From Ecytonucleospora hepatopenaei (Eukaryota > Microsporidia > Enterocytozoonidae), in assembly GCA_026692725.1 (NCBI GenBank), contig JAPMUG010000005.1:124001-188000 (forward strand): a DNA stretch of 64,000 nt. Reading direction: 5' to 3'. A model generated the notes under the pieces. That model did not search any database and was not told where the DNA came from. It worked only from the letters and a program-made list of their open reading frames with translations. Positions 33,510-61,619 of the stretch are shown here, piece after piece. How positions within the stretch are numbered: position 1 is the stretch's first letter; each line of letters starts with the position of its first letter. The position numbers and the translations under genes are program-made.

Positions 33510-33740
33510 TTTTTATGAACCCAGTGGGGTTCCGGTCTAACAAACCCCGAGTATAGAAACCCAGAATGGAGTTCCAAAGACTACAGCCAAGGCCCCCAGA
33601 AGAGTCCAAAGGTGATCGGTTGCAAAGCTGGTCAGGTTTTGGTAGGGCAAGGGCCCATATACAAGCATGGCCGGTTTTAAGTAAAACAGTTGAGGAAAAG
33701 TGTCCAGTGTGCGGTGAAATATTTAATTATTAGAAGTAGT
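33510..33740 (+). other. GC-rich insert with short frame ending in CPVCG motif
   Basis: About 230 bp of roughly 50 percent GC within about 20 percent GC surroundings. A 55-codon frame starts at the ATG at 33566 and ends at TAG 33731-33733; it is rich in Arg/Pro/Gln and ends KCPVCGEIFNY, a Cys-x2-Cys pair. An upstream in-frame segment has stops. The composition and the Cys pair suggest the tail of a decayed retroelement or transposon protein. Adjacent GGTTCC and AACCCC can form small hairpins (about 33518-33548). Confidence 0.45.
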
Positions 33741-34127
33741 AAATAAATTTTTAGTTGTAAAAAAATTTTTATGTATATTATGTAAATGAAAATTTTATTT
33801 ACGCAGATAAATAAAATTTTAACTACGCAAAAATATCAAGAATTTATTAATTTATTTTATATCAAAGGTTTTCAAATACTTATTTGCAGCGTTTCTTTAT
33901 TGTACCTATAAGTTTTTTAAATAAAATGTCTGGAATTTCTTCCTATGCTTGTAAAATTGTTTTTTAGGTCCTTTATAAACTTAAAGGAATACCTTAATCA
34001 TACACTCTACAGACCAAACCAACCCGATAAATTTTCAATTAGATTAAAGCCTAGGAACATGAAGGTCAATTTAATACTGTAATACCCTTTTCCTCAAAAA
34101 ATCCCGCCATTTCACCTTTAACATGTA
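33741..34127. other. Intergenic, possible decayed insert
   Basis: Nothing definite was seen. 33930-34120 has higher complexity than the usual AT-rich spacer but no long frame, so it may be the remains of another insertion. Confidence 0.35.
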
Positions 34128-34312
34128 CAGTACTGTAAGTAAAAAAATGAGAAATGTCTTAGACCTCTAGAAACATCTTCACATTTTCTACAAAACACTC
34201 TTTGATGCTGTTTTTATACCACTTAAAAGTATCTTTTTTGTTTTTTTAATAAACTCTTTTTTTAAAACATACATCAAAATTTATTTAAAAAGTGTAAGTA
34301 AAAAATGAGAAA
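34128..34312. repeat. Left IR/DR end of Tc1 element
   Basis: Outer repeat at 34128-34153 and inner direct repeat at 34292-34312 share the CTGTAAGTAAAA...ATGAGAA motif. The pair is probably the transposase binding sites. Confidence 0.7.
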
Positions 34313-34362
34313 TCACTTTCCCTCCATAGTACTTTAAAAAATAAATTTTTAATGTTCCTTTT

Positions 34363-35366
34363 ATGTCTAAACACATTAATTATATTAGTAAAAGACGAAT
34401 TTTGGCTTTACGTGATGAAAATTATATTTATAAGGAAATTTATAATAAAGCAAAAATACCACTGGCTACAGTGGGTAGAATCATTAAAAACAGCATGGAA
34501 AGGGGGACTACAGACCGAAAATACGATTCTGAAACATCTTTTAAAGTTCCAAGGCTCAAGAAATCTTTATAATTAAGATATTAACATCAGATGAATGTTT
34601 TTTTAAAGAAATAACTAATAAAATTGACAAAAAATTTAATTGTAAACTCAGTCGTACAACAGTGATCAATATCTAACATGAATTGACATTGTATATTTTT
34701 TGCGACTGAAAAGGTTTTTTTGAGTAAAAAATATTAATTTTAAAAATAAAAAATCAATAGATTGGATATATGTTTCAGACGACCAATGGACGCAGGTTTT
34801 ATGGTCAGATGAGTCCCTTTGAGTTATATACTAATTTTAAAAAGTTTTATGTTAGAAGAAAATATACAAAAAGTATTTATTAAAAAAATTAACAGGTACA
34901 ATTAAACATGGAGGAGGCAAAAATCAGTTTTGGGGCTGTTTTTCATATTATGGTGTTGGGAATTTGTTCTGATCAAGGGCAATATGTAAAAATTTCAATA
35001 TTTAGACATATTAAAGAATAACCTTGAAGAATCTATTAATATGATGAACCTAACTAGCCAATTTTCCAACAAGATAATGATCCGAAACATACAAGAAAGC
35101 GCGTAAAAGTGTTTTTGGAGCTTTTCAACTTCGTAACAATAAAATGACCATCTAAGTCACCGGATCTGAACCCTATTGAACATTTATGGGCCTATATTAA
35201 AAAGAAACTATCAGGTTTCAGGGCGAAAAATGATCAGGAATTATTCGCAGAGGTGGAGCAAATTTGGTACAGTATAAAACCTGAGGTGTTACAGAACCTG
35301 GTTTTAAGTATGAAAAAGAGGGTTTTAGCAGTTTATAAGGCAAAAGGAGGTCCTACTAAATATTAA
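34363..35366 (+). pseudogene. Tc1-type transposase, frameshifted
   Basis: The N-terminus is readable at 34363-34572: a helix-turn-helix region (SKRRILALRDENYIYKEIY, then LATVGRIIKN). After that the frame is broken by several shifts and stops. Later landmarks confirm the family: WSDES near 34804, QDNDPKHTRKRVK near 35072 (second catalytic Asp), SPDLNPIEHLWAYIKKKL near 35158 (third catalytic residue) and a terminal KGGPTKY before the stop at 35366, typical of Tc1 transposases. At least two frameshifts are needed to join these, so it is inactive. Insect or fish Tc1 elements are likely relatives, so transfer from a host is plausible. Confidence 0.85.
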
Positions 35367-35377
35367 ATTTATTTTTA

Positions 35378-35559
35378 TCATTTTTTACTTACATCAAGGG
35401 TATAAAAAATCATTTTTGCCGTTAAAAAATCAATTTTCAGAATTTAATAAAATAATAAATAAATGATACGTTACTTAACCCTTATAAAAATTTTATTAAA
35501 TTAAAAAACCATAATTTATTAAAGACTTAGAACGATTCTCATTTTTACTTACACTATTG
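35378..35559. repeat. Right IR/DR end of Tc1 element
   Basis: The inner copy at 35378-35394 and outer copy at 35536-35559 are inverted relative to the left end, ending with CACTATTG directly before the TA target duplication. Confidence 0.7.
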
Positions 35560-35586
35560 TAGCTTTTGTTAAAATTTATTCCCGTT

Positions 35587-36156
35587 TTATAGCATGTTGC
35601 TTAATTTTTGATGTTGTTCTACTAAAAATCTTTTTAAGTTAAAAATTTCTGATTCAAATGGAAATAAATCAAAATAAGCATTTACAAATACATTAAGTTT
35701 TTCTATGCAAAGAGTGATTACTAAAATTTTTGTTTTGATTTCTTCTTTAAGTTTTAATATTTTTTGTTTAGTATCTTTAAGAATGTTTAGCCTTTGTAAT
35801 TTTACAAGTTTATCCATGTAAAAGTCATAAAAATCAAACTTACACACTTTTGCAATTTCATCAAACATTGAACAAATCTTGTTTAACCTATGATTTATAT
35901 GATGATTTGGTGATATTCTTTCATTTAATTGTTTTTCAATTTCCAAAAAATCAGTTTTTAGCTTTATTAGTTCTTCAACAGATTTTTCTAAAGAATCCAA
36001 TGGTAAAAATCCCATTTCTAGTTTAATTTCATTACATGCTATTTCTGTTTTATATTCAAAATTTATTACTTTTTGTAGAATTATCATTTTTTCATCTTCT
36101 ACTGATGTAGCTGAATTAGAAGCACCAAATAATGTTCTAAAAAGTATTATTAACAT
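35587..36156 (-). CDS. Secreted helical protein, family A
   Basis: A 189-aa predicted secreted protein. N-terminal signal (MLIILFRTLFGAS, cleavage probably after S/N). The remainder is helical, rich in Lys/Glu/Leu. The VCKFDFYDFYMDKLVKLQ segment, the DTKQKILKLKEEI segment and the C-terminal FNLKRFLVEQHQKLSNML are shared with the gene at 31916-32458. The stop codon lies 30 bp beyond the right end of the Tc1 element (35559), so the transposon inserted between two family members. Function unknown. Confidence 0.72.
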   Translation of the reverse strand: MLIILFRTLFGASNSATSVEDEKMIILQKVINFEYKTEIACNEIKLEMGFLPLDSLEKSVEELIKLKTDFLEIEKQLNERISPNHHINHRLNKICSMFDEIAKVCKFDFYDFYMDKLVKLQRLNILKDTKQKILKLKEEIKTKILVITLCIEKLNVFVNAYFDLFPFESEIFNLKRFLVEQHQKLSNML

Positions 36157-36302
36157 TAAAATTATAATAAATATTCAAATGTTAAATTTTTTAATAAAAA
36201 TAAAAAAGGATATTTTAAATTAAAATAATTTCATATGGCATATTAAACTAATTTAAAAACAATAAGTTTTAAATCATTTGTTAAAATATCTCAAAACTAA
36301 AT

Positions 36303-36887
36303 TTATTCTATTGAATTCTCTAATTCTATAATTTTGCTTATTTGATGTTGCATAAAAAAAGATAAATCTATAATGTATTGTAAATTTGCAAGTAAATTTT
36401 CTTGAATTAGTTCTTTTAACTCTTCTAATTTATTTTCCAGTTGTTGTTTTGTATTTATCATATGGGTTTTTAATTCTTTTAGAAGTTTTTCTTCTTCTTC
36501 TTTTAGGCCATTTGATTCTTTAATTTTTTGTATTTGAGTACTAAAAGTGAGAAAAAAATCAAGCTTAAATAATACACAAACACTATTTAAAACTTCTTTT
36601 ATCTTTGCAACAAAATTAACCTTATTTCTATTATGTTCATTTATAACTTCCTGATTTACACTTCTTTTTTGTTTAAAATACTCTTTCCATAATAAAATAA
36701 AAGCATTAAATTCTTCTTCCATAAAAATAAAAGAATTTAAGTTACTGAATACTTCATCTCTTAGCGATAAAGATTTAAATAACAGTCTTTTATAAGAAGA
36801 AACACCCGTTTCTTGTAAAGTATTAGGATTAGATGCACATGTTATAATTTTAAATAAATATAATAGTTTGACAACACTGTAAAACAT
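36303..36887 (-). CDS. Secreted helical protein, family A
   Basis: A 194-aa predicted secreted protein with signal MFYSVVKLLYLFKIITCAS (Ala-rich cleavage region after TCA). It shares with the genes at 36988 and 39599 an N-terminal motif of the form FM-x2-E-x-N-x4-LW-x4-K (here IFMEEEFNAFILLWKEYFKQ). It shares KLDFFLTFSTQIQKI with the FDFY motif of the others, linking the two sub-branches into one family. AAAAGGGT lies about 35 nt upstream. Function unknown. Confidence 0.7.
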   Translation of the reverse strand: MFYSVVKLLYLFKIITCASNPNTLQETGVSSYKRLLFKSLSLRDEVFSNLNSFIFMEEEFNAFILLWKEYFKQKRSVNQEVINEHNRNKVNFVAKIKEVLNSVCVLFKLDFFLTFSTQIQKIKESNGLKEEEEKLLKELKTHMINTKQQLENKLEELKELIQENLLANLQYIIDLSFFMQHQISKIIELENSIE

Positions 36888-36987
36888 TTAGAATATAAAT
36901 TAATAAAATATTAATATTTTAAAAGGGTTTTTTATTAAAAAATAAATAAATTAAAATTAAGAAAGTATTTCAAGCATAAATTTTATT

Positions 36988-37548
36988 TTATTGTATGCGT
37001 TGTAAATTAAATAGTTGAAAATTGTAAAATTCTCTTAAAATCAACATATGATCATCTTCTTTTAATTGATAAGTTTGTTGTTGTTCATTTACCATGAATA
37101 TAAAAAGTTCTATTCGATTACAGATAGTTTTTATCTTCTCAAATAATTCTGATATTTTATTATCATTGCACCCATTTCTATTTTGAAATCTAAGCATTAA
37201 TTTATGCCGGTCTAAAACATTGGCAAGATCAACACTCATTAGAATATTGGTGATCTTACCAATAAGAATGTAAATGTCATCTTTTAAGCTTGTTAATAAA
37301 TTGTTTGGTTGTTCATCACTATTTGTATCAATTAATGAACACAATTTTAAGTTTTTTGTCCAAATTCCTAATAAATCATTTATTTCTTGTTCCATGTATT
37401 CATCTTCTTTTATATTTTCTTTTAAGTGTTCTTCAATTTGCATTGATTTTATTAATAAATTTTCTAAAGTTACCTTTAAATCCATTTCATCAATAGATGC
37501 ACATTTTAACATACAAACAAAAATAAAAAATAACACAAAATTATACAT
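36988..37548 (-). CDS. Secreted helical protein, family A
   Basis: A 186-aa predicted secreted protein with signal MYNFVLFFIFVCMLKCAS. The mature protein is helical. Its motif EDEYMEQEINDLLGIWTKNLK parallels NDFMVKEVNSLTTLWLDCLK of the gene at 39599, and DDIYILIGKITNILMSVDLAN parallels EIYTTICGITDKFKSVDFAE. GGGAAAG about 12 nt upstream of the start serves as the start-proximal signal. Function unknown. Confidence 0.72.
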   Translation of the reverse strand: MYNFVLFFIFVCMLKCASIDEMDLKVTLENLLIKSMQIEEHLKENIKEDEYMEQEINDLLGIWTKNLKLCSLIDTNSDEQPNNLLTSLKDDIYILIGKITNILMSVDLANVLDRHKLMLRFQNRNGCNDNKISELFEKIKTICNRIELFIFMVNEQQQTYQLKEDDHMLILREFYNFQLFNLQRIQ

Positions 37549-37988
37549 TTTATTTAAAGGGAAAGTATTAAGAAATATTTGTTATTAAATTAAAAAATTA
37601 AAACAAGAAAGTGACTAATGCTTCTTGTTCCAGATTTTCTTATAATTTATTAATTTAGTCTCTGAACGTTAAACTCTCAGGTTTATTAAATATTTGTCTT
37701 TAGACATGTATATTAAATAATGTCATTGAAATATTGTATATAAGCATATAAGAAAAATAGTTAAAATGTAGCAAAAAAGATATGGTAAATTTATGTAAAT
37801 TTTAAATATCAAATAAAAACAAAACACCTTAAAAAACCTTTTCAAGTTTTCAACATAAAATAAATATATCAGTTATGATGTGTTAGACATTTTTTTATTT
37901 TAAAAATTAAATTTTATTAATTAGTTCAATAATGAATTAAATATTAAAAATATTTTTAATCCTTTTTTAAATTAAAAATAAATTTAAA
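37549..37988. other. Divergent intergenic region
   Basis: The 440-bp spacer between divergent secreted-protein genes holds AT-rich sequence and the element AATCCTTTTTTA at about 37960, similar to a pyrimidine motif upstream of the small membrane-protein genes. No gene was seen. Confidence 0.5.
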
Positions 37989-39224
37989 ATGTTATTTACA
38001 TTACTATACGGATTATTAAACGTTACAATTTGTGCTGATAGCGATGATTTGTTTCTTGAACAAGATTTACAAGCATGTTTTACTGATCCAACGAATAAAG
38101 AAATAGATTATAAAATAGAAGAAGAGTTTGCTAATAAAATCAAAGAAATTTTATCCTCAAATTCTTTGCTAGCACAATTTACAACAAATCTAGACAAAAT
38201 TTATAAAGAAACACGCAATTTTTTAATTTTAAAAAATGTATCAGAAAAATTTACTGATATTTTTATCCATAAAAACAAACGTGAAATTATTTACTTTGCA
38301 ATACAATTTAAATATTTTGTTACTTTTATCACAAAGAATTTTGATAAAAATCTTAGCTCTGTGATATATTACAAAGATCCACGCTTAAACTATAAAGAAT
38401 ATTTTTATCTCTCTAATTATTTTATGGAAATTATGTTTTTTACAAAAACACCATTTTATGATAAAAAAACGGATAGTTATCCTTTTTATTATGAATATTC
38501 TTTATTTTTAATGAAAAACAGACTAATGAATTTAATTTATGTATTTTATAAATATCATAATTTATTGTTAGAAATTTATAAAAACCCAATTGTTACTTCA
38601 GAAATTTTATTGTTTTATGTTGCGTATGACATGTTTTTGAGCAGGTGTATTTTACATATGTTAGATGTAATGATGCTTTATGTTGAAAATGAAAGTTTTA
38701 TGGATCAAGTAGCAGAGGTATTTTGTTTTAACTGGACAGCAACAGAATTTTACAACAGTATTATAAGAGAAAAATTACAAAACCATGCAATTTATAATTT
38801 ATCTTGTTTTGGTAAATTTAGTTTTCCAATAAGTAATAGAAGCGCTGAGTATTTCAAAACAGTATATGATCAATGGAATGAATTAACAGTTAAAATTCCA
38901 GTAAAAATATATAGAACTACGTTAATTAATTTTTATTCAAAAAACAAACATTTAGGAACTATTTTAGAGACAAAAACAATGATGGAATATAAATCAAGAG
39001 TTGATGAAAAATTTAACAGTCAAAGAACAGAAGGTGAAGGTGCATCAACCAGTACTGCACAAAGAAGAGAGGTAGAAAATCAAGAAAGTGAAAGAGAGCA
39101 ACCAATATCAGAGGGGGAAAGAAAAAAAGAAGAAGAAGGAGAACCATCTTCAAAAAAACAGAAAATTTCTTATACAATAGCAAGCAAAGATTCTTCTGAA
39201 GATAAAGACAAAACAAATGAGTGA
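37989..39224 (+). CDS. Large secreted protein, family B
   Basis: A 411-aa predicted secreted protein, not recognised. Signal peptide MLFTLLYGLLNVTICA (cleavage after ICA). The body (residues 20-330) is helical with many aromatic residues and no further membrane segment. The last 70 residues are disordered and highly charged (SQRTEGEGAS to DKDKTNE), containing PSSKKQKIS, which resembles a monopartite nuclear localisation signal. Residues 270-330 match the protein at 51839-52978: shared pattern F-x-F-P...IY-x2-W-N...K-x5-RKTLN-x-F, and a KxxxDEKFNSQR / RAEFDRKK end. Function unknown; a host-targeted effector is a guess. Confidence 0.75.
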   Translation: MLFTLLYGLLNVTICADSDDLFLEQDLQACFTDPTNKEIDYKIEEEFANKIKEILSSNSLLAQFTTNLDKIYKETRNFLILKNVSEKFTDIFIHKNKREIIYFAIQFKYFVTFITKNFDKNLSSVIYYKDPRLNYKEYFYLSNYFMEIMFFTKTPFYDKKTDSYPFYYEYSLFLMKNRLMNLIYVFYKYHNLLLEIYKNPIVTSEILLFYVAYDMFLSRCILHMLDVMMLYVENESFMDQVAEVFCFNWTATEFYNSIIREKLQNHAIYNLSCFGKFSFPISNRSAEYFKTVYDQWNELTVKIPVKIYRTTLINFYSKNKHLGTILETKTMMEYKSRVDEKFNSQRTEGEGASTSTAQRREVENQESEREQPISEGERKKEEEGEPSSKKQKISYTIASKDSSEDKDKTNE

Positions 39225-39598
39225 AAAAATAAAATTTATAATTAATTAAATACAGGGTTTATAATATTATAAATTAAATAAAAAGTTTATTAGATTATAG
39301 ATTTAATAAATGTGTTTCTTAAATATTTTTAAAGTCATATTTCTTATTTCATGTCCACATAAAATTTTAAAAATTAACCTTAATCTTTTTTAAGTCTATT
39401 TTAAAATCATTAAGTTTATATAAAATATAAAATAAAATTATGAACATTTAAACAAATTATTTATGATCCATATAATATTTTATTTTAATACATGGCTAAA
39501 ATAATGAAAATTTATTAGATGAAATTAGTCTCATTGACCAAATGTATGGGCATACTATAAAAACTACATACATATGATAGATTAAAATTATTATCTAT
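39225..39598. other. Convergent intergenic region
   Basis: A 374-bp AT-rich spacer with AATTAACCTTAATC at about 39371 but no gene or RNA. Confidence 0.55.
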
Positions 39599-40162
39599 TT
39601 AATCGATTTTGTGCAACTTATCTGATTGTTTTATTAAATGATCAGACAACAAAAATAATGGATCATCCATTTTTATTTCATTTTGCATCGCTTGAACAAA
39701 AATTTTATTAACTATTGCATCAATTTTTTTACACATTTCTTTTATTTTAATTTTTAACTGTTTAATTTCTTCATCTTTAGAACCATCAGTATTTTGTGCT
39801 TTAAGTTGTTCATATTCCTGCTTGATATTTTCAGCAAAATCGACCGATTTAAACTTATCAGTGATTCCACAGATTGTTGTATAAATCTCTTTAAGCATTT
39901 CTTCATTTTTACTTTTTATTTGTTGATTTGTTTCTGATTCTAATGATTTCCCTGCTTTTAAACAATCTAACCAAAGTGTTGTCAAACTATTAACTTCTTT
40001 TACCATAAAATCATTTTGTTTTAAATTTTCTTCCACATATTCTTCTAATTCATTTAACGTTGTATTTAATAGTATAAGCCTATCAGTGCATTCTGAAACG
40101 CCTTCACCTACTGCGCATTTTGACACATTTAAGAAATTAAAAACATTTAATATCAATAACAT
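39599..40162 (-). CDS. Secreted helical protein, family A
   Basis: A 187-aa predicted secreted protein, the last of six family members. Signal MLLILNVFNFLNVSKCA, then Cys-containing VSECTDRLILL. Helical, Lys/Glu/Asn-rich. It is most similar to 36988-37548 (same order: FM/YM-x2-E-x-N-x-L...LW/IW, IT-x3-SVD, an LKxKIKEMCKKIDAI segment against LFEKIKTICNRIELF). A GGG triplet (CCC on the coding strand) lies 3 bases upstream of the ATG. Function unknown. Confidence 0.72.
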   Translation of the reverse strand: MLLILNVFNFLNVSKCAVGEGVSECTDRLILLNTTLNELEEYVEENLKQNDFMVKEVNSLTTLWLDCLKAGKSLESETNQQIKSKNEEMLKEIYTTICGITDKFKSVDFAENIKQEYEQLKAQNTDGSKDEEIKQLKIKIKEMCKKIDAIVNKIFVQAMQNEIKMDDPLFLLSDHLIKQSDKLHKID

Positions 40163-44625: not shown

Positions 44626-45048
44626 ATGACTTTTCCTGGTGTACATTATAATGCGCACATGGTATTTAGAGGTTTTACAGACGGAAAACAAGCTGAAAAA
44701 AATTTTAATGCAATGAGAAATAACAGATACAGAAAAAACAAATTACAAAGAAAAAGAAGGCCTGCTTTTCAAAAACTTGTTAGTCCAAAAAAGATTGAAA
44801 ATGTTACTGAATTACCTGAAGAAATAATTACTCAGGATAAAAATATTGCTGAAATATCTGTTTATAAAAATCTACCTGAAACTACGCCTGTAACATTAAA
44901 TACAACAAAATCTATAAAAAATGAAAATGAAAATGATCATAACCAAATGGATTGTATTTTATCATTAAGTCTATCATTGGTTATAATTATATTTTTTATT
45001 TTTTATAAAATATACAAAACATGCAAGAAAAATAAAAACAATAATTAA
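44626..45048 (+). CDS. Small tail-anchored membrane protein
   Basis: A 140-aa protein. No signal peptide; a basic N-terminal half (RNNRYRKNKLQRKRRPAF), an acidic/Thr-rich linker, then one membrane segment (CILSLSLSLVIIIFFIFYKIY) and a Lys/Asn tail. Similar in layout to the gene at 49431-49796 (basic, KKK-rich head, C-terminal membrane segment, Lys tail), so they may be paralogues of a second sub-type within the cluster. It is the first of about 14 small single-pass proteins up to 54.3 kb. Confidence 0.65.
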   Translation: MTFPGVHYNAHMVFRGFTDGKQAEKNFNAMRNNRYRKNKLQRKRRPAFQKLVSPKKIENVTELPEEIITQDKNIAEISVYKNLPETTPVTLNTTKSIKNENENDHNQMDCILSLSLSLVIIIFFIFYKIYKTCKKNKNNN

Positions 45049-45305
45049 CAAAAGTTCTAAAGATTTTTTTATATTTAAATAAATATACTTTTAAAAACCT
45101 ATTAATAAAATAATAGTTTTATATATTTATTTTTTGATAATTATTTTTTTACTGATATTTAAAACCTGATTATTTTTGAGTCCTTATTTTTTTACAAAGT
45201 TATATTTTTACGTTATTATAATAGTTTTTACCTATATTATATTTAGTTATATATCATCTTAAATATATTTAGTTATATTATACTTAGTTTTAAGAATTAA
45301 AAAGA

Positions 45306-45680
45306 ATGTTATTAGTGTTTTTACAATATGTCATTAATATGTTTATGCCTTTACATCCTCTTTACATTCATGAAAAGGAAGATACAGTAACTGAAAAAAC
45401 AACAACCCATACTACACCTACAACAACAATACCTACAACAGAAAGCAGTAAAGCACCAATTACAACTGAAGTCATAAATTCTTGTGATATGAATGCATTT
45501 TCTTTAAAAAATGATTTATGCTCAGAAATGTCAAATGGACATTTAAATTATATTTATTTGGGCGTTGCCATAATATTTATTATTATATTGTGTTTTATTG
45601 CATTTTTTATTAAAAGAAGGTTTAAAAGAACAAGGGAATATGATCAAAGTATACCATTACCACCAGTTCCAATTGTATAA
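45306..45680 (+). CDS. Small type I membrane protein, Thr-rich ectodomain
   Basis: A 124-aa protein of the WISxHP-type family, most divergent member. Signal-like N-terminus (MLLVFLQYVINMFMPLHPL). Ectodomain residues 28-56 are Thr/Pro-rich (KTTTHTTPTTTIPTTESS), mucin-like and open to O-glycosylation. Two Cys follow (positions 60 and 72), then the membrane segment (about residues 82-101, LGVAIIFIIILCFIAFFI) and a basic tail ending EYDQSIPLPPVPIV: a Pro-rich segment of SH3-ligand type and a C-terminal Val. TCCTTATTTTTTT lies 125 bp upstream of the start, as in its paralogues. Function unknown. Confidence 0.7.
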   Translation: MLLVFLQYVINMFMPLHPLYIHEKEDTVTEKTTTHTTPTTTIPTTESSKAPITTEVINSCDMNAFSLKNDLCSEMSNGHLNYIYLGVAIIFIIILCFIAFFIKRRFKRTREYDQSIPLPPVPIV

Positions 45681-46257
45681 TTTTATTAAAAAGTTTATTT
45701 ATACTTTATTTAGATTTAAATTTTGTATGTAAAGTTTACGATTCAAATTAGTTTTTATTATTCAAATAACCTTACTCATTGTAAATAAACTTTAAAAAAT
45801 AGTATATATATTTATCATTATTTAAAATATTCTTTTATTTAAAACTTTATGTGCAACACTTTTATAAATTTAACCTTATTGTTTTTTACTAATAAATAAA
45901 CTACATAATTGTTAACAATAGATATTTAAAATTTTTTGTAAAATAAACATTTTTTTATTTAAAATAAATATATTGCAAAAATAATAATGACAATTTAAAT
46001 ATTTATAAAACAGTTTTCTAATAAAAATTCAAATAATACAGATGAAATAAAAACTAAATGTTTTTGTTTTGCTATAAATTATAATAGATTTATTTATATT
46101 TATTTTACACTAATTCAATTAAAAAATGATATTTAAAATCAAATTTAATTTAGGTCCTTCTTTTTTACAGATTTAAACTTTGATTTTTAAAAATTATTAG
46201 TGAACTTATACAAATTTAAAATTAGATATTTATAAAGTAAAAGATACGTATAAAATA
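45681..46257. other. Intergenic with shared upstream motif
   Basis: A 577-bp AT-rich spacer. It contains TCCTTCTTTTTTAC at 46155-46168, about 100 bp before the next start, a motif repeated upstream of the other paralogues. No gene was seen. Confidence 0.5.
46155..46168 (+). promoter_or_regulatory. Candidate shared upstream element (TCCTTCTTTTT)
   Basis: The best example of a pyrimidine-rich motif found 90-125 bp before the start codons of five tandem membrane-protein genes: 45181 (gene 45306), 46155 (46258), 46931 (weaker, 47024), 47978 (48069) and 48630 (48721). Confidence 0.4.
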
Positions 46258-46575
46258 ATGAAAATGATATTTATATTTTTAGCATTTATTTTATCATGGT
46301 ATTTACCACCACAAGATCAACATTTGTACATGGATGGCACAAATAACACAGATGGACCAGAAAAAGATTTAGCTTGGGATCATAGTTTTTGCAATTATCC
46401 ATCATTTTTCATTCCTGAATTTTTATGCACAACTGAAAATGGAATTAAAATTAATGAATGGATTAGTGATCATCCAGTGTATTTTTATGGTGGTATTGCA
46501 TTGTTTTCAAGCGTTTCTCTTTGGGTTATTGCATTCTGTATAAACAAAAAATTAAAAAGAAGAAGTGAATATTGA
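46258..46575 (+). CDS. Small type I membrane protein, WISxHP family
   Basis: A 105-aa protein. Signal peptide MKMIFIFLAFILSWYL. Ectodomain with the cysteine pair C45 and C57 and the family motif WISDHPVYFY (residues 68-77) directly before the membrane segment (about 75-95). Short basic tail NKKLKRRSEY. Aligned with the genes at 47024, 48069 and 48721 by: C-x5-7-x-C, N/E-W-x-S-x-HP, membrane segment, K-K/R-x4-R. Function unknown; a surface or parasitophorous interface role is inferred from layout only. Confidence 0.75.
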   Translation: MKMIFIFLAFILSWYLPPQDQHLYMDGTNNTDGPEKDLAWDHSFCNYPSFFIPEFLCTTENGIKINEWISDHPVYFYGGIALFSSVSLWVIAFCINKKLKRRSEY

Positions 46576-47023
46576 AACTTAATTAAATTGTTTTTTATTT
46601 TGTAAAAAAATATTTTTATTAATTTACTTTTAAAAGTTTAAAAAATAAATTAATTATACTTACTTGTTCTTTATTTTAAAACAATTATTTTATAATGTTT
46701 TTTGCTAACATTTTCTTTATATGAAATATTCTAAAACTAATTTTTAAATAAAAAATTATATTGTTTAAACAGTAAAATAAATATTGTATTTTAAAAATAT
46801 CTAATTATTATATTAAAAAATTTAAAAATATGCACTGATAAAACATTTGTTACATTTAAAAATGATACATGTGTTAATTTGTTTTTTAATACTTTTAAAA
46901 TTTTATATTTAAAAGTAAATTAAATTTGTATCCTCATTTAAAGTATTCTTTAGGCATTTAATTGGTATTGTATTATAAATTATATAAAAACATTAATTAT
47001 AAAAATATCTAAGGTATATAAAA
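46576..47023. other. Intergenic, AT-rich
   Basis: A 448-bp spacer. A weaker TCCTCATTTAAAG version of the shared upstream motif lies at 46931, 93 bp before the start. No gene was seen. Confidence 0.5.
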
Positions 47024-47467
47024 ATGATGTTTGTTCTTTTTTCAATAATCGTTACAGCTTATTTACAAGGTTATGATTTTCATCATTACATGAAAAAAAG
47101 CAAAACTTACATACCCAAAGCAATAAATGATTTAAAAACTACAACAGAAAAGATTAGTGGTTTACAGATTACAACAGAAAAAAGCAGTGATTTGAATATT
47201 CCAAATCCAAATATCACAAATAATATACCAGAAAGTTATTTTCTTTGTAACGATCCAATTTACAATGGTTCAGAGTATTATTGCCAAAATTTAAATGATG
47301 AAAATGTAAAATGGTATATTAGCCATCCAACCTGTGCTTATATTGGCATTGCAATAATTGGAATTTTATTTTTATGTTTAGCTACATTTATTATTAAGAA
47401 ATTCTTAAGAAACAAAAAAAATTATAAAATCAAAAATATGCCATTACCACTTACACCAGAAGTATAA
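47024..47467 (+). CDS. Small type I membrane protein, WISxHP family
   Basis: A 147-aa protein. Signal MMFVLFSIIVTAY. The ectodomain has a Thr-containing repeat (LKTTTEKISGLQI, TTEKSSDLNI), Cys residues (C75, C87), N-x-S/T sites, and WYISHPTCAYIG (residues 97-108) before the membrane segment (GIAIIGILFLCLATFII). Tail: KKFLRNKKNYKIKNMPLPLTPEV, Pro-rich with a terminal Val. Nearly identical over the WxISHPTCAYIG-membrane region to the gene at 48069. Function unknown. Confidence 0.75.
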   Translation: MMFVLFSIIVTAYLQGYDFHHYMKKSKTYIPKAINDLKTTTEKISGLQITTEKSSDLNIPNPNITNNIPESYFLCNDPIYNGSEYYCQNLNDENVKWYISHPTCAYIGIAIIGILFLCLATFIIKKFLRNKKNYKIKNMPLPLTPEV

Positions 47468-48068
47468 AACTTAAAAACATTTTTCAAAAAAAATCACAAA
47501 TACGTAATATATCATTCACGTATTTTTATTCAAATAAAGTTATATGAAATAATGTTTTGTTTAATGAGAAACCACTTTTTAATTTGTTTGTGTTTTTAAA
47601 TAGTAAAATTAATAAATCTAGCTATTATATCTTAACAACTTATTTTGCTTGATTTTAGCCATGTAAATTACATTTTCCAATAATTCTAACTATTGAAAAT
47701 AACATGAGAATAATAACATTCTTAGGAATAACTTCCCAGGTCAAGCTTTAAGCTTTAGTGAAAGACTATTAACAAATGATAATTAATATTTAATAATTGC
47801 TTAAAATATGGGTTGAATTATTAAAAACATTTATATAGTTTTAAATTAAGCTTATTTTATAAGCAAATATTAAGGTTAAATCCTATTAGATATGTTATAC
47901 GCTTATAAAAAAATTATATATAATAGATTTTTTCCTAATATTGTAAAATTCCATCTTGAAATTTTATTTAATTTTTATCCTTATTTTTAAATTATATTAG
48001 TTTTTAACAAATATTTCTTAGTAGTAAAGTTAAGAACATATAACAAGTAGCATATAATCGTATATTGA
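47468..48068. other. Intergenic
   Basis: A 601-bp spacer. About 47650-47760 has slightly higher complexity (CTTCCCAGGTCAAGC) but no coding frame. TCCTTATTTTTAA lies at 47978, 91 bp before the next start. Confidence 0.5.
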
Positions 48069-48407
48069 ATGATATTTATATTTTTAGCAATAATACTGAC
48101 AGGTGCTTATCGACCACCTGAACATTTTAAAATTATAAATCATAATGAAGATATACCAGAAGGTTTTACCATATGTAAAGAGCCAAATTTTTATATTTCA
48201 AACTATTATTGCAATAATACAAAAGATGGCAATAATATTCAAAATACAAAATGGTTTATTAGCCATCCAACATGTGCTTATATTGGAGTTGGTATGATTG
48301 GAATTATATTTTTATGTTTTATTGTTTCTTTTATTAAGAAAATGTTTAAAAAAAGAAAAGAATATCAATCAAAACGTATTTTATTACAGAAAATTACACA
48401 AGTTTAA
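48069..48407 (+). CDS. Small type I membrane protein, WISxHP family
   Basis: A 112-aa protein. Signal MIFIFLAIILTGAY. Ectodomain with CKEPNFYISNYYC (residues 36-48; compare CNDPIYNGSEYYC in its neighbour) and N-x-T sites, then WFISHPTCAYIG (62-73), the membrane segment (VGMIGIIFLCFIVSFI) and a basic tail KKMFKKRKEYQSKR...KITQV. The terminal TQV would fit a class I PDZ ligand or a C-terminal Val ER-export signal. A clear recent duplicate of the gene at 47024. Confidence 0.76.
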   Translation: MIFIFLAIILTGAYRPPEHFKIINHNEDIPEGFTICKEPNFYISNYYCNNTKDGNNIQNTKWFISHPTCAYIGVGMIGIIFLCFIVSFIKKMFKKRKEYQSKRILLQKITQV

Positions 48408-48720
48408 AATTTAATTTTTATTAAGAAATTTAAAAAAACATTAACACTTTTTTTATTTAAATATAATTGTATATAAAATAAATTAAATTTATATTAAAAT
48501 TAATATTTGTTTTTTATATACAATTTATACTATATAATTAAATGTATGTAATATTTAACAAAAGTTTATAAATTTATTTTCTAATAATTGAATTTATAAT
48601 ATGATATTTAAAACCTTGATAAATTTACATCCTTCTTTTTAATACTTAAAACATATTAATAGTTATAAAGTAAAATCATATAAAATTACAATAAATATAA
48701 CTATTAGTTAAAAATAAAAA
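48408..48720. other. Intergenic with shared upstream motif
   Basis: A 313-bp AT-rich spacer with TCCTTCTTTTTAATAC at 48630-48645, 91 bp before the next start. Confidence 0.5.
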
Positions 48721-49065
48721 ATGATAATTTTATTTTTTAAGTTTGTATTTCCATTCTTCTTTAGAAACCTTTTTATGCAGTGGTTTCAAGATAATGATGA
48801 TAAAGAAATTGAACAAAATAGCAAAACAAACACTATTCAAACTAATGAAAATGATGTAAAGTGTGAATGTTCATTATTATCAATTAAGAATCTATTTGCT
48901 TCTTCAGGTGAAAATGATAACAGTTTACAAAAATGGATTTCTGAACATCCTAGCTGTGTATATGCATTCACTGTGTTGTTTTTTGTCTTAATATTGTTTT
49001 TTGTTGTAATTTACATGAAAAGAAGATCAAAAAGATCTGTAAGATTTGAACAATCTATGGTATAA
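48721..49065 (+). CDS. Small type I membrane protein, WISxHP family
   Basis: A 114-aa protein. Signal MIILFFKFVFPFFF. The ectodomain is acidic/Asn-rich with CEC at residues 48-50, then KWISEHPSCVYAF (71-83), the membrane segment (VLFFVLILFFVVIYM) and a basic tail KRRSKRSVRFEQSMV with terminal Val. Part of the tandem family with 46258, 47024 and 48069. Function unknown. Confidence 0.73.
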   Translation: MIILFFKFVFPFFFRNLFMQWFQDNDDKEIEQNSKTNTIQTNENDVKCECSLLSIKNLFASSGENDNSLQKWISEHPSCVYAFTVLFFVLILFFVVIYMKRRSKRSVRFEQSMV

Positions 49066-49430
49066 GCATTAATAAAATAAATTATGCTTAAAATTTAAGG
49101 TTAAAAATTGATAAATCAATATAAGTAAAACAATTATAATTTTAAATTAATTGTTTTATTTACTAAAATTATAAGAATCAAGTTTCCTGATACATATTTA
49201 AAAATTAATTAATTAAAAATTTACTTATTAATTTTTTAATTAGTGATTTAATAAAATTTTTATTGAAACCCTAACATTTTAATTTCTAATAATTGATCTT
49301 TGATATTTTTTATAATTGATATTTGATTATACTATTTTATAGTTACATACTTAATAATATTATATATTTTATAAAAAAAATTTATAAAGGTTTTTATTTT
49401 TGACAAAGATTAGTTTAAAGCTTGATTAAA
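49066..49430. other. Intergenic, AT-rich
   Basis: A 365-bp AT-rich spacer with no gene or obvious element. Confidence 0.5.
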
Positions 49431-49796
49431 ATGGGAATTCCTCATAGACCAATGATTTTTAATTTAGATCAATTACACCGTTTTCAAACTTATAAACACC
49501 CAACTACCAAAAAACCAAAAAAGAAGAAGAAAATCCAAACAATCAGCACATTTTCTAGTGGTAGACCAAGATATCCAAGTATTTATCATAGTAAAAAAAC
49601 AAAAAATACAAGCTTAAATAGTGAAACTACTAATAGTTTAAAAAATATAAATGCTTTTAAAAACAAAACATCTTTAAATTTTAAAAAAGACAATACCAAT
49701 AATTACAATCATTCTTTATGTGTAGGATTGATATCTTTTTCTATTTTAGGAATTATTTTATTTATTCTTTATAAAAAATATAAAAATAAAAAATAA
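49431..49796 (+). CDS. Small tail-anchored membrane protein
   Basis: A 121-aa protein. The start is the ATG at 49431; three upstream in-frame codons begin with TTG and are not used here. The N-terminal half is strongly basic (KKPKKKKKIQT) and Ser/Asn-rich. One membrane segment near the end (CVGLISFSILGIILFILY) is followed by KKYKNKK. No signal peptide; most like 44626-45048 in layout. Function unknown. Confidence 0.62.
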   Translation: MGIPHRPMIFNLDQLHRFQTYKHPTTKKPKKKKKIQTISTFSSGRPRYPSIYHSKKTKNTSLNSETTNSLKNINAFKNKTSLNFKKDNTNNYNHSLCVGLISFSILGIILFILYKKYKNKK

Positions 49797-49948
49797 ATAT
49801 TTATTTATAAAATCTTTTATCATTGAAGTTATTGTTTTTTTTATTAAATTTATAATCAATTATTCAATTAATTTTATTATTTCAATTTTAAGGTTAAATT
49901 AGAAATTACCCTATTTTCAAATAGAATAAATTTTAAAATATAAATAAC

Positions 49949-50164
49949 ATGGAAAAAGAACAACAAATAATTTATAGTAGTATGTTTAAAGTTTTGTTAA
50001 ATCTTGAAAATGGAACTCTTTTATGGTTATTATTATCTTTTTTAGTTTTACTGTTTTACATAGCTCTTTTTATGTATTACATGTCGAGAAGGAAGAAAAT
50101 TAAACAAAGAAATAAAATACAAAATATTGTAAAATCAGGTGATATGTCAATTTTAGACGTTTAA
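49949..50164 (+). CDS. Small single-pass membrane protein
   Basis: A 71-aa protein with a long hydrophobic segment (LLWLLLSFLVLLFYIALFMYYM) at about residues 24-45 and a basic tail (SRRKKIKQRNK) ending ILDV. N-terminus out, tail cytosolic is the likely topology. The motif TTACCCT about 40 nt upstream supports the start. Function unknown. Confidence 0.6.
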   Translation: MEKEQQIIYSSMFKVLLNLENGTLLWLLLSFLVLLFYIALFMYYMSRRKKIKQRNKIQNIVKSGDMSILDV

Positions 50165-50276
50165 ACAAATTAATATCAGTATATTATTTTTAAAAAACTA
50201 TATAAAATTATACATTAAATAAAACATTATAAAATTTTGTTTTTAAATAACCTTACATAATTCAAATTATTAACGT

Positions 50277-50462
50277 ATGGGTAACTTAACAAATATTATG
50301 GATAATAAACATCTAAATAAAAATAATTCTTATAATATTGAACGCAATGTATTTTTAGTTATTGCTATTATACTTATAATATATTCAATATTAGAATTTA
50401 TATATATTTTATGTATTAAGGTAAATGAAAGAAAAAATAATGTTATGATAATACGTTATTAA
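50277..50462 (+). CDS. Very small single-pass membrane protein
   Basis: A 61-aa protein: Asn-rich N-terminus, one membrane segment (VFLVIAIILIIYSILEFIYILCI) and a short tail KVNERKNNVMIIRY. Not recognised. Kept as a gene because it fits the run of same-strand small membrane genes; low confidence by size. Confidence 0.45.
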   Translation: MGNLTNIMDNKHLNKNNSYNIERNVFLVIAIILIIYSILEFIYILCIKVNERKNNVMIIRY

Positions 50463-50706
50463 ATGAATCAAGAGAGTTTAACAATAATTTATTATAAATT
50501 AAATTTTATATGTTGTAATTTAAAACAGTTTATAGAAAAAATAATTTTTTAAAACTATCATTTTTTGTAACTTTTACATATATAAAATTATAAAAGGTAT
50601 TAAAATGGTATTTGTTTTTATTAAATTTTAAATCAAAAACATTTAATTAAAAATAAATTTATCCCTTATCAGGTTTTTAATTTAATTCTAATTTATTAAT
50701 TACAAA

Positions 50707-51114
50707 ATGTTGTCTGGTTTATTTACATTAATATCATTTGTACTATCAATCACAAAATATACAGAAAAGATTTTAAGTATAAAAGAATTTGACAGCAATG
50801 AATTAAGTCCAGATTTTTATGATAAAGAAAACATAAGTGAAAATGTTACTGGTTTATATGAGGAAGTAAAAAATAATTTGAATGAAAATAGTTTAAACAA
50901 TACGGAAGAAAATAATTTTTCACAATCAGAGAAATGGTGGTATCAACCACCTTCTTTAGGAGAAACCGTTTACAATTTTTTACTCTCCAGATCATTTGTT
51001 GGTACAGTTTGTTTGGTTTTAATGATTATAGGCATGTTTTATGCTTTTATACATTTTAAAAAGAAAGTAGGTGGTGGTAAAAAGAAAAATAAGTTAAGAG
51101 TGATATCAGTATAA
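50707..51114 (+). CDS. Small type I membrane protein
   Basis: A 135-aa protein. Signal MLSGLFTLISFVLSI; an Asn/Glu-rich ectodomain with N-x-S/T sites (e.g. NISENVT); WWYQPPSLGETVYNFL just before the membrane segment (FVGTVCLVLMIIGMFYAFI); tail KKKVGGGKKKNKLRVISV with terminal Val. The WW-x5-7 before the membrane is analogous, though not identical, to the WIS motif of the WISxHP genes. TTTATCCCTTATC lies about 45 nt upstream. Function unknown. Confidence 0.65.
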   Translation: MLSGLFTLISFVLSITKYTEKILSIKEFDSNELSPDFYDKENISENVTGLYEEVKNNLNENSLNNTEENNFSQSEKWWYQPPSLGETVYNFLLSRSFVGTVCLVLMIIGMFYAFIHFKKKVGGGKKKNKLRVISV

Positions 51115-51358
51115 AATTAAATTATGAAAATACTTGTACTTATTTTTTAACAAATTGATTAAATATCTTAAATTATTTTTGAGTAAATTTCACTAAAATG
51201 TTTTTAAGGTAAATAAAATTTAAAAGAACATTAAAAAATTAATTATCGCAGTGATATTTTTAGACCTTTTTGATAATCTTATTTTATTTATAGTATTTTA
51301 TATTCTTTAATCTTATTCTGTATTATTTGATACTTAAAATCAGTTTTATTTAATAAAG

Positions 51359-51685
51359 ATGAATAGAATAGGTTTATTTTATTTTCTATTGTTTTTGATG
51401 TTATTTTCTCATTGTAAACGAGAAACCAAAATATCTTTTTGTAGTGGAAATGTTTTAGATCAGTGGGAAGAAAGTATTTTTGATACAACTAAAGATTTAT
51501 ACGATGTAAATAAAAAAGAAACTTTAATCAAAAAAGATGCTAGCTCTTATTACGTTATTGATAAAAAATATTTAAATTGCTGTAAAGAATATTTTGTAAT
51601 ATTTTTTATATTTTGTTTACTTGTATTAATATTTTTATTAAAGTTAGGAAGAAAAAGAAGAGGAAATGATGGATATTTAATTTAA
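51359..51685 (+). CDS. Small type I membrane protein, Cys-containing
   Basis: A 108-aa protein. Signal MNRIGLFYFLLFLMLFSHC. The ectodomain has Cys at about 27 and a CC pair (YLNCCKEYF) next to the membrane segment (FFIFCLLVLIFLLKL), with an acidic middle. Tail GRKRRGNDGYLI. Not recognised. Confidence 0.62.
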   Translation: MNRIGLFYFLLFLMLFSHCKRETKISFCSGNVLDQWEESIFDTTKDLYDVNKKETLIKKDASSYYVIDKKYLNCCKEYFVIFFIFCLLVLIFLLKLGRKRRGNDGYLI

Positions 51686-51838
51686 ATTTGAATAATAATT
51701 TGATTGAAACTAGATTTTGTTAATTTAGTTTAATTCTCTCAAACATATTTTTCATGTAATTTTATTGAAATTATACAAAAATTATTCATTAACATGTATT
51801 AACGTATAAAAATATAAAATTCATTTTAACCTTAAATT

Positions 51839-52978
51839 ATGAAAATCAAGTGGTTTATTTTTATAATAAAAATTAATGCATCTATGGAATATGCTAATTA
51901 TAGTTTAGATAACATAACAGAGAGTAAAATTGTTAAATTCAACAATATTAATGATGAACTAAATCGTAGTGGTAGCAGCACAGATTCTTGCTATTCAGAA
52001 CCTTTTAAGTTAAGTGATTCTAAACAGCTGAAATATTTTGATGAAATGAGTTGTTTATTTAAAGAGTATAAAGATACACCTGGTTTATACAATATAATTG
52101 ATAAATATTTAAATGCTGCTTTCCCTAATATAGGGAAAAGTCAAAATTATAAACAAGAAATTTTAAGCTTTTTTAAATTCAAATATCAACCAAATGTTCA
52201 TGCTTTTTGTTTAGGAGTTAAAGCCTGGCTTTCTACAATAAGGTGTAAATTAAAACAAAGTAGTCTCATGTTTTTGCCTACCAAACACAAAGAAAAAGCA
52301 GATTTTGATCATATTGTTTACCTAAAAATAGGCAAGATTAATTTGAAACCTGTGAAACAAGAAACACTTAAATATAAATATAATTTATCAAAAAACTATT
52401 TTAATACTTTAATATACAATGTGACTCTTCTTATTCTTTTAGCTGATTCTGTGCATAAACTTTCAGTTGAAAATTACACTAAGGAAGATAAATATAGCAA
52501 ATTTGAAATGTTTTTTGTGGATTATTTATTACATCATTTAATTTCACATATATTAGAGTGTATTCTTACGTATGAATGTTTTGATAACATAATCATTAGA
52601 GAATTCTCATTTTTTACAACAATATTTAGTTTAGATTTTTCTTTGTACAATGAATTTTTAAAGTTTAAAGAAAGCTTTGCTGCAAATGACTTGGAACTTG
52701 GTTTAATCAATTATTTTCCTTTTGAAACAAATTTATCAGATAAAAAAGAAATTAATGATATTTATAATAACTGGAACAAGCATAACAAATTTAGATTTAA
52801 ACACAAAGTATTTTCAAGAAAGACGTTAAATAGTTTTTTTGCTGAAAACACCTTTTTAAATATTTCACTTCCTAAAGAAAGTCTAGACATGTTTAAAACC
52901 AATCTTAGAGCAGAATTTGATAGGAAAAAGGAAGGTTTAAAAGTTTGTTGTTTAACTTGTAGTAAAGAAAAAGTTTAA
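51839..52978 (+). CDS. Large secreted protein, family B
   Basis: A 379-aa protein, paralogue of 37989-39224. The N-terminus (MKIKWFIFIIKINAS) is a plausible signal sequence. The body is helical and aromatic-rich, without another membrane segment. Shared with its paralogue: EMFFVDYLLHHLISHILECI against LLFYVAYDMFLSRCILHMLD, and YFPFETNLS...IYNNWNK...RKTLNSFFAENT against FSFPISNRS...VYDQWNE...RTTLINFYSKNK. It ends in a Cys-rich VCCLTCSKEKV instead of the long charged tail of its paralogue. Function unknown. Confidence 0.72.
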   Translation: MKIKWFIFIIKINASMEYANYSLDNITESKIVKFNNINDELNRSGSSTDSCYSEPFKLSDSKQLKYFDEMSCLFKEYKDTPGLYNIIDKYLNAAFPNIGKSQNYKQEILSFFKFKYQPNVHAFCLGVKAWLSTIRCKLKQSSLMFLPTKHKEKADFDHIVYLKIGKINLKPVKQETLKYKYNLSKNYFNTLIYNVTLLILLADSVHKLSVENYTKEDKYSKFEMFFVDYLLHHLISHILECILTYECFDNIIIREFSFFTTIFSLDFSLYNEFLKFKESFAANDLELGLINYFPFETNLSDKKEINDIYNNWNKHNKFRFKHKVFSRKTLNSFFAENTFLNISLPKESLDMFKTNLRAEFDRKKEGLKVCCLTCSKEKV

Positions 52979-53103
52979 AATATTATTTAATTCTAAACTA
53001 TGGTAATTTCAACATATTTATACCATATTGGAACTTATTTTGAAATATTGAAAATTTTATAAAATTAACCTTAAATATTTTTAAAATTTTACACTTGCAT
53101 TTT

Positions 53104-53583
53104 ATGTTACTTTCAAAAACTAATCATGTTTTGTGTTTTACTTCCCTTGCACTGCTAAGTGTTGGGGTACTTATATATTTATTATATAAATTAGCTATGT
53201 ATTGTAATAATAGCATATGCAAAAGTAAAATTACAAAAAATTCTAATACAGTAACATATATTAAGGACAATAAAAATAAAAAAGAACTAACCATTGAATT
53301 TACAAATAATCAAGAAACAACATCTGAACACAACCAAACACTAGAAACAGTGGTTAATACACCAACATATGAAAATACTTTACCAGAATGTAGTTTACTA
53401 ACGTATTCTACACGTGATTCTTTTGCATTACAAGAAGAACACCATTATGAAGTGATTAAAGAACCTGAGACAAAAGCAAATAATGATGATTTTTATGAAA
53501 ATATAAACAATAAAAAAGAGAGTGTTTATTTAGATATGTCTAATACTTCTACAATATATGAAAATATGCAAAATAAAGAATAG
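53104..53583 (+). CDS. Membrane protein with multi-tyrosine (ITAM/YxxM-like) tail
   Basis: A 159-aa protein. The start is the ATG at 53104; an upstream in-frame TTG is not needed. One membrane segment near the N-terminus (about residues 9-30, VLCFTSLALLSVGVLIYLLYKL), then a soluble tail of 125 residues, so the topology could be signal-anchor with the tail on the cytosolic side. The tail holds five Tyr motifs: Y89-ENT, Y115-EVI, Y131-ENI, Y142-LDM and Y152-ENM. The spacing Y131-x-x-I-x7-Y142-x-x-M-x6-Y152-x-x-M is like immunoreceptor activation motifs, and YxxM/YxN are known SH2-docking types (PI3K p85, Grb2). Acidic residues precede several. No conventional domain. Whether the tail faces the parasite or host cytosol is unknown. 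Confidence 0.72.
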   Translation: MLLSKTNHVLCFTSLALLSVGVLIYLLYKLAMYCNNSICKSKITKNSNTVTYIKDNKNKKELTIEFTNNQETTSEHNQTLETVVNTPTYENTLPECSLLTYSTRDSFALQEEHHYEVIKEPETKANNDDFYENINNKKESVYLDMSNTSTIYENMQNKE

Positions 53584-53728
53584 TATGGTTTTTTTAAATT
53601 TTAACTTTATTTTATTATTAAAAGCTTATTTTTTATCAAAAAGCTTATTGTAATAAAATAAATTATTGTAATACTTATTTATTATAAAATAAAACTTTTT
53701 AAAATTAATAAAACCCTTTTATTACAAA

Positions 53729-53965
53729 ATGTCAAGTTCAAATCAAGACTATCTTCAAGAAAGTTCTATAAGTAATTTTATTGGAAATAACCTTAAAAAT
53801 ACTACTACTGCTAAATATAGTTTTGTTAATTACTTGTGTTGGTTTATTTTATGTTCATTTTTTATTTTTATTTGTATTACGTGGTATTTTAGAAAGAAAA
53901 TTACATACAGGTGGAAATTGATGTGCAAGAAGAAATCTAACATTTTAGCATATAAACAAATTTAG
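53729..53965 (+). CDS. Small single-pass membrane protein
   Basis: A 78-aa protein: Ser/Asn-rich N-terminus without signal peptide, a membrane segment (YLCWFILCSFFIFICITWYF), and a basic tail RKKITYRWKLMCKKKSN ending YKQI. AACCCTTTT lies about 18 nt upstream. Not recognised. Confidence 0.6.
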   Translation: MSSSNQDYLQESSISNFIGNNLKNTTTAKYSFVNYLCWFILCSFFIFICITWYFRKKITYRWKLMCKKKSNILAYKQI

Positions 53966-54098
53966 TGTTTTTAAATAAAACGACTTTATTTTTAGTTATC
54001 TTATTGTGATTAGTTTGATCAATATTTTAAACATTCTATAAAAAGGTAAATACTGCTCCTTTATCATTTCTTAAATATCAAAAATATAAACATCAAAG

Positions 54099-54275
54099 AT
54101 GAGTAATGTTAATATTGAAGTTATTTTTGTCTTAGGATTATGTGTATTTGCAATAATAGGAGCAATAGTTTCATATATTCAGAGAAGAAGAAGAATAGCA
54201 AAAAAGAAAGAACTTAAAATGGAAAGTTTAGACAACATGACTACTAGACCTATACTACAAGGTGCAACTATATAA
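54099..54275 (+). CDS. Very small single-pass membrane protein
   Basis: A 58-aa protein: MSNVNIEVIFVLGLCVFAII leads the membrane segment (about residues 8-26), then a basic stretch QRRRRIAKKKELK and a tail ending LQGATI. It is too short to be striking alone, but orientation, spacing and layout match the small membrane-protein cluster, of which it is the last member. Low confidence by size. Confidence 0.5.
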   Translation: MSNVNIEVIFVLGLCVFAIIGAIVSYIQRRRRIAKKKELKMESLDNMTTRPILQGATI

Positions 54276-60752: not shown

Positions 60753-61619
60753 TTAATATCTTCTTTGTCTTTCCTTGCTAAAATCAATACGAATGCTGTC
60801 ACAATTTGGTAATGGACCAGCCCTTTCCAAAGCTTCTTTTGCATTTTTTGCAGCATCAATAGATTGGAAATTCATAAAACAAAATCCTTTTGATCTTCTT
60901 GTTTCCCTGTCACACACAACATTCAAATCAAAATCATCTCTAATGTGTCTTGATAAAACATCTCTTAATGTATCATTGTTATATTCATAACCAATTCCAA
61001 ATACAACCAGCCCAGCTGAAGGTTCATTTTCTCTTCTCCTGTCATCTCTTCTCCTATCATCATTAACTCTGTCACCGAAATCCCTTCTGTCATCTCTTCT
61101 GTCATCTCTCCTGTCGTCACGTCTGTCATAATGACCTTCTCTTCCTCTGTCATTGTAACCACCCCTTCTGTCATCTCTCCTGTCGTCACGTCTGTCATTG
61201 TAACCACCTCTCCTGTCATCACGCCTGTCATCTCTCCTGTCGTTGTAACCACCACGACGATCGTCAAACTCTCTTCTTCTGTCATCACCTCTGTTGAAAT
61301 CTCTCCTTTCATCTCTTCTGTCATTATATCCAGGTCTCCTATCATCTCTTCTGTCATTGTAACCACCTCTTCTGTCATCACCTCTGTTGAAATCTCTCCT
61401 TTCATCACGTCTGTCATTATAGCCACCTCTCCTGTCGTCACGCCTGTCATCTCTTCTGTCATTATATCCACCTGTTGATTCTTTGTATTCTCCTAATACA
61501 GCATCTGCTTTGCTTTTAAACCCTTCAACGTTTCTTTCCTTTTTAGGAGTTTCTTCCTCCCATCCTACTGTTTGCTCTGTAGAATTTGCTTCCTTTGACT
61601 TTGCTTTGGCTCTTGGCAT
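60753..61619 (-). CDS. Tra2/SR-like RRM protein with RDDRR repeats
   Basis: A 288-aa RNA-binding protein. The start is the ATG at 61619 (MPRAKAKSKEANS); the frame continues upstream to a TTG, but TTTACCC 12 nt before this ATG supports it. Residues 50-195 are repeats of the kind GGYNDRRDDRR, arginine/aspartate/glycine/tyrosine-rich and disordered, likely RNA-binding and condensate-prone. One C-terminal RRM (LVVFGIGYEYNND..., RNP1 KGFCFMNF, ending IRIDFSKERQ) resembles transformer-2 and SR proteins. Probably a splicing or mRNP factor. Confidence 0.72.
   Translation of the reverse strand: MPRAKAKSKEANSTEQTVGWEEETPKKERNVEGFKSKADAVLGEYKESTGGYNDRRDDRRDDRRGGYNDRRDERRDFNRGDDRRGGYNDRRDDRRPGYNDRRDERRDFNRGDDRRREFDDRRGGYNDRRDDRRDDRRGGYNDRRDDRRDDRRGGYNDRGREGHYDRRDDRRDDRRDDRRDFGDRVNDDRRRDDRRRENEPSAGLVVFGIGYEYNNDTLRDVLSRHIRDDFDLNVVCDRETRRSKGFCFMNFQSIDAAKNAKEALERAGPLPNCDSIRIDFSKERQRRY

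Follow-up and report, generated by a model that had tools for sequence, protein, structure and literature searches.

A predicted single-pass orphan protein with a tyrosine-motif tail in a membrane-protein gene block of a microsporidian

The locus and its setting

The window analysed here is a stretch of 64,000 nucleotides (C9:124001-188000), and the genome to which it belongs was searched as 3.09 Mb in 13 contigs. On its + strand, the open reading frame (ORF) that begins at 53104 has the start, the stop, and the 159-residue length that a preliminary description had given it, and the small membrane protein proposed there is borne out by one predicted N-terminal segment, of the single-pass kind (Table 1). 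Hydropathy finds this hydrophobic segment only. AlphaFold2, run from the single sequence, places one helix at residues 5-37 and gives pLDDT <50 for residues 39-159, which is consistent with a disordered tail. Tyrosines lie at residues 25, 28, 33, 52, 89, 101, 115, 131, 142, and 152, seven of them in the tail.

The gene sits within a block of co-directional ORFs, ~25 kb from a telomere-like end. Contig C9 ends on the right, at 205.3 kb, in a degenerate TTAG-type array that begins at ~202.5 kb, and we have taken this array for a telomere. At another contig end (L036:1035-7275), three arrays follow one another: one with an 8-nt unit, one with ~33 identical copies of a 30-nt unit, and a telomere-like one, degenerate and of TTAG type, 2.7 kb long. 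Membrane segments are predicted in 14 of the 15 block ORFs, or 13 at a stricter cut-off. Among ORFs of at least 80 aa, a segment is found in 10/11 within the block versus 54/190 elsewhere (Fisher P 5.2e-5), a test to be read in the knowledge that the region was picked after inspection and that the hydropathy predictor is crude.

Flank charges give a hint of orientation. Counted over up to 15 residues, they come to +2 before the 53104 segment, the start amine being counted in, and to +3 behind it; in the 12 further block members whose segment was scored, the charge that follows ranges from +1 to +7. The charges lean weakly toward a tail inside the parasite, the bias being small and the predictor crude. 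The host-facing tail that the preliminary description entertained is disfavoured, if weakly, by these charges; a reverse anchor or a cleaved signal may be an alternative topology.

Five block ORFs (45306, 46258, 47024, 48069, and 48721) align as a type I set, being 17-43% identical to 47024. One Cys before the membrane segment is invariant among them, and a basic tail follows the segment in all four members that were scored. A profile search with the set returned five proteins from 3249 candidates, all virtually identical to the window's own, with one 99% variant. With 47024 as single query at E ≤ 0.1, there were four matches (itself, 48069, 46258, and 45306); 53104 is not among them, but neither is the set member 48721, so this test is weak. 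A 47-nt element is shared by four of the ORFs (45306, 46258, 47024, and 48721), lying 127-161 nt ahead of the start codon. A matrix scores 41 to 51 at these four source sites and 11.7 (at -127) for 48069, which had been left out; outside the four source sites, no + strand place in the window scores higher than the latter, though one on the - strand, at 37819, reaches 18.9. Upstream of 53104 the best matrix score is -1.0, and 53104 was rejected as a member of the set because the element is missing.

The upstream neighbour, 51839, is a member of a dispersed family for which the genome gives 28 matches at E ≤ 0.001, 51839 included. Seventeen of these lie no more than 15 kb from a contig end, and nine of the 28 contain internal stops; L035:7522-8151 is also a member. 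The ORF at 37989-39224 of the window matches the family by local BLAST only, with composition correction off (E 1.2e-8), and is not one of the 28 places.

Some other features of the window may be recorded here. Six - strand ORFs (31326-40162), each 167-194 aa long and with a start that looks like a signal, resemble a tandem secreted set by eye. A further - strand ORF (60753-61619), also judged by eye, has many GYNDRRDDRR-type repeats before an apparent RNA-binding domain. Between ~15330 and 23815, GC drops to as little as 14% and the ORFs are very rich in Asn and Tyr.

Table 1. Features of the 53104 locus and its surroundings, in window coordinates
Feature	Position	Strand	Remark
Six signal-like ORFs	31326, 31916, 35587, 36303, 36988, 39599	-	By eye
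Block of 15 co-directional ORFs	44626..54275	+	53104 lies within; 14 with predicted membrane segment
47-nt element, copies	45145-45191, 46119-46165, 46895-46941, 48594-48640		Weaker copy at 47942
Upstream neighbour, dispersed-family member	51839..52978	+	28 genome places, itself included
Orphan ORF, 159 aa	53104..53583	+	Standard code, stop included; only itself found in protein and genome searches
Predicted membrane helix, residues 9-27	53128..53184	+	Hydropathy; within AlphaFold2 helix
125-aa tail, residues 35-159	53206..53580	+	Predicted disordered from residue 39
Y89ENT	53368..53379	+	Motif scan of tail
Y115EVI	53446..53457	+	YxxPhi; first half of loose ITAM, with Y131ENI at x12
Y131ENI	53494..53505	+	YxxPhi, YxN
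27-nt direct repeat, copy 1	53494..53520	+	In frame; 22/27 identical, spacing 63
Y142LDM	53527..53538	+	YxxPhi, YxxM
Y152ENM	53557..53568	+	YxxPhi, YxN, YxxM
27-nt direct repeat, copy 2	53557..53583	+	In frame; ends at stop codon

Tyrosine motifs and their frequency

The positions of the five tail motifs, and the YxxI-x7-YxxM-x6-YxxM spacing that the preliminary description had compared to an ITAM, are all correct. The comparison itself survives in part. The ITAM consensus is Yxx[LI]-x6-8-Yxx[LI], with a looser x6-12 form; a pattern scan of the tail finds no match to the strict pattern, which rules out a strict ITAM, and the looser form is present as Y115EVI-x12-Y131ENI, with an acidic residue at -3.

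Two simpler motif classes are also represented. Of the seven tyrosines in the tail, four belong to YxxPhi motifs (Phi being I or M) that stand well clear of the membrane; four such motifs in a protein with one predicted membrane segment are what would be looked for in adaptor (AP) cargo. Ligands of the PI3K p85 SH2 domains have the form YxxM, often paired, and Y142LDM and Y152ENM, 10 residues apart, are by motif candidate ligands of this type.

How much of this could be chance? We compared the tail with 20,000 composition shuffles of its 125 residues, using patterns chosen post hoc on a sequence that had already been inspected. On these terms, P was 0.0053 for four Yxx[ILM], 0.0035 for two YxxM, 0.00015 for three YEN, 0.068 for three YxN, and 0.00005 for the relaxed triple Yxx[ILM]. 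The looser ITAM form gave P 0.024 (0.004 with the acidic residue at -3), and any Tyr-tripeptide occurring at least three times P 0.0025.

The second yardstick was a background of 201 ORFs, each 80 aa or longer and the target among them, taken from 324 kb, with counts expressed per 125 aa. This set is leaky: it is biased to contig ends and kinase loci, some of its ORFs are unlikely to be genes, and where kinase loci overlap (for example, L010 and L020) a few are counted twice. At least four Yxx[ILM] occur in 41/201 ORFs, at least three YxN in 31/201, the relaxed triple Yxx[ILM] in 18/201, and the strict ITAM pattern in 16/201. Rarer are two or more YxxM (10/201) and the loose ITAM with acidic -3 (4/201), both counts including 53104, and three or more YEN are found in 53104 alone (1/201). 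When each ORF was shuffled separately, Yxx[ILM] reached P ≤ 0.01 in 5/191. Some Tyr-tripeptide recurs at least three times in 28/201 ORFs, 18 of which have ≥15% Asn. Since YxxPhi and ITAM-like patterns are commonplace in the ORF set they are weak evidence; the genuine oddity is the triple YEN. Overall, the tyrosine motifs are real and somewhat commoner than chance, and the statistical signal is modest.

The oddity has a possible source in the DNA. YEN is carried both by the in-frame 27-nt repeat (codon-shuffle P 0.017) and by a 15-nt repeat (93%), so short duplication may account for some of the excess of YEN.

Relatives and candidate motif readers

The microsporidian source presumed in the preliminary description is upheld by the SRP54 protein encoded in the window. 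Among the best 120 of 749 hits, one database protein matches it at 100% identity and the next two at 72% and 64%; the nearest named match among those listed (7997 candidates scored) is Nucleospora cyclopteri at 62%. These similarities indicate a microsporidian whose nearest lineage, among those compared, is that of N. cyclopteri.

For the 53104 protein itself, a search of its own genome at E ≤ 10 found it once, and no second copy; a search of 5.8 billion proteins returned, from 25 candidates, its own sequence only, on six contigs. There was no match among PDB sequences at E ≤ 10 or in Pfam at E ≤ 0.5, and of 12 pattern matches in viral contigs none was confirmed. Because the protein search relies on words of five residues in common, it could pass over a diverged relative or orthologue. 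On these searches, 53104 appears to be an orphan, known so far from this microsporidian alone.

What in the parasite could read such motifs? Catalytic-loop rules separate Ser/Thr-type from tyrosine-type protein kinases. The genome has at least 19 protein-kinase matches, 18 of them over the cut-off. Read by pattern around each match, the loop is of the Ser/Thr type, D-[LIM]-K-x-x-N, in 18/19 and HGDLTTMN in the remaining one; no tyrosine-kinase-type loop was seen among the 19, in keeping with the earlier expectation that typical tyrosine kinases would not be found here. This favours a reading of the motifs without phosphate. One tyrosine-phosphatase-type match is present. The SH2 profile (PF00017) has no genome match, but the controls were likewise matchless, so absence is not demonstrated; SH2_2 has a single sub-threshold match, to an 875-aa frame that is probably Spt6.

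A mu-adaptin, at the locus L041, matches PF00928 above the Pfam cut-off (E 2.6e-17). It has no match among solved structures at E 0.001, and its C-domain matches AP-2 mu weakly (best E 0.17). In that alignment the Asp of an FxD-type strand is paired with the AP-2 mu Asp, within a 1.1-bit stretch, and WVK occurs in the C-terminus; an Asp and a Trp of this kind line the YxxPhi pocket. L041 is a likely phosphate-free YxxPhi reader with a putative pocket. The protein also carries Asn/Tyr runs like those of the low-GC stretch of the window. Further adaptor subunits matched are one of sigma type and three large chains of adaptin type, some of which may be COPI. Another adaptor match, L042, falls short of the Pfam cut-off and matches no solved structure at E 0.001; presumably it is a delta-COP-like protein. 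With a mu-adaptin encoded in the genome, sorting by YxxPhi within the parasite is an ordinary reading of the tail.

Explanations and known systems

The explanation that we prefer, and hold tentatively, is that 53104 encodes a lineage-specific single-pass protein with an internal sorting tail read by the parasite's mu-adaptin. The tail would lie in the parasite's own cytoplasm, where Y115EVI, Y131ENI, Y142LDM, and Y152ENM would serve as unphosphorylated sorting signals; mu-adaptin, on binding them, would send the protein on to the cell surface or spore membranes. Several observations tell against this: four or more Yxx[ILM] are frequent in the ORF set, adaptor binding leaves the repeated EN of YEN unexplained, the charge bias is small, and the structure matches of L041 are weak.

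It is conceivable, if somewhat doubtful, that the motifs have no dedicated function. A fast-drifting, disordered tail rich in Asn, Thr, Glu, and Lys, in an AT-rich genome, would come to repeat TATGAAAAT through composition and short duplication. The two YEN-bearing repeats fit this account, as do the commonness of YxxPhi and the recurrence of Tyr-tripeptides in other, often Asn-rich ORFs. However, the tail is unlike the Asn/Tyr-repeat sequence elsewhere in the window, and its three YEN and two YxxM exceed its composition.

Mimicry of host signalling strikes us as unlikely. Here, the tail would face the host, Src-type kinases would phosphorylate its tyrosines, and the YxN and YxxM sites would recruit Grb2-like and PI3K p85-like SH2 domains. 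The rarity of the triple YEN and the close pair of YxxM argue for such a role, and the kinase matches, having no tyrosine-kinase loop, imply that a kinase of the host would probably be required for phosphorylation. The setting also fits, with a membrane block near a telomere-like end, a large family adjoining, and no relatives where searched, all in line with the traits published for microsporidian host-exposed proteins (PMC5423893); a setting so like that of published host-exposed proteins makes host mimicry possible, although unproven. On the other side, the charge bias leans tail-in, the strict ITAM is missing while ITAM-like patterns occur in other ORFs, the YEN excess may partly be micro-duplication, and the searches made found no orthologue. 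More specifically, the telomere-proximal tail could mimic the docking tail of an animal receptor, with host kinases phosphorylating it and Grb2-like and PI3K-like SH2 proteins drawn to the parasite surface; this we rate as distinctly unlikely, and host exposure, phosphorylation, and SH2 binding are all steps that we infer. Any explanation besides sorting, lack of function, and host mimicry is very unlikely in our estimation. Among open-licence PMC papers, judged by titles and the starts of abstracts, no report of phosphotyrosine mimicry by microsporidia was found, and the papers listed on ITAM mimicry by parasites included none on microsporidia by title.

Three known systems invite comparison. 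ITAM-bearing receptors and their viral mimics are single-pass proteins with spaced Yxx[I/M] motifs in a disordered tail. The 53104 protein is like them in its predicted single pass, its spaced Yxx[I/M], and its predicted disordered tail, and unlike them in having no strict Yxx[LI]-x6-8-Yxx[LI] and in being known from sequence alone. AP adaptor complexes, for their part, take YxxPhi cargo and do not need the YEN pattern. The likeness is in the four YxxPhi of a membrane-anchored tail and in the mu-adaptin of the genome; the difference is that YEN goes beyond the adaptor requirement and that the cytosolic side of the tail is a prediction.

The third system is the class of microsporidian host-exposed proteins, which, according to Reinke et al. 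(2017, PMC5423893), are marked by a targeting signal, clade specificity, and large gene families. Of these marks, 53104 has the first two, in a predicted segment and in searches that found only itself; it resembles the class in that no relatives were found outside the organism, and in having one membrane segment, and a large dispersed family adjoining, and departs from it in being a singleton rather than a large-family member and, so far, a protein read from DNA. Whichever way the 53104 tail points, the block at 44626-54275 brings candidate surface proteins together in a compact set. A tail on the host side would exemplify phosphotyrosine mimicry by a microsporidian; with the tail on the inner side, as sorting by mu-adaptin would have it, the protein would be a candidate cargo of a reduced adaptor-sorting system.
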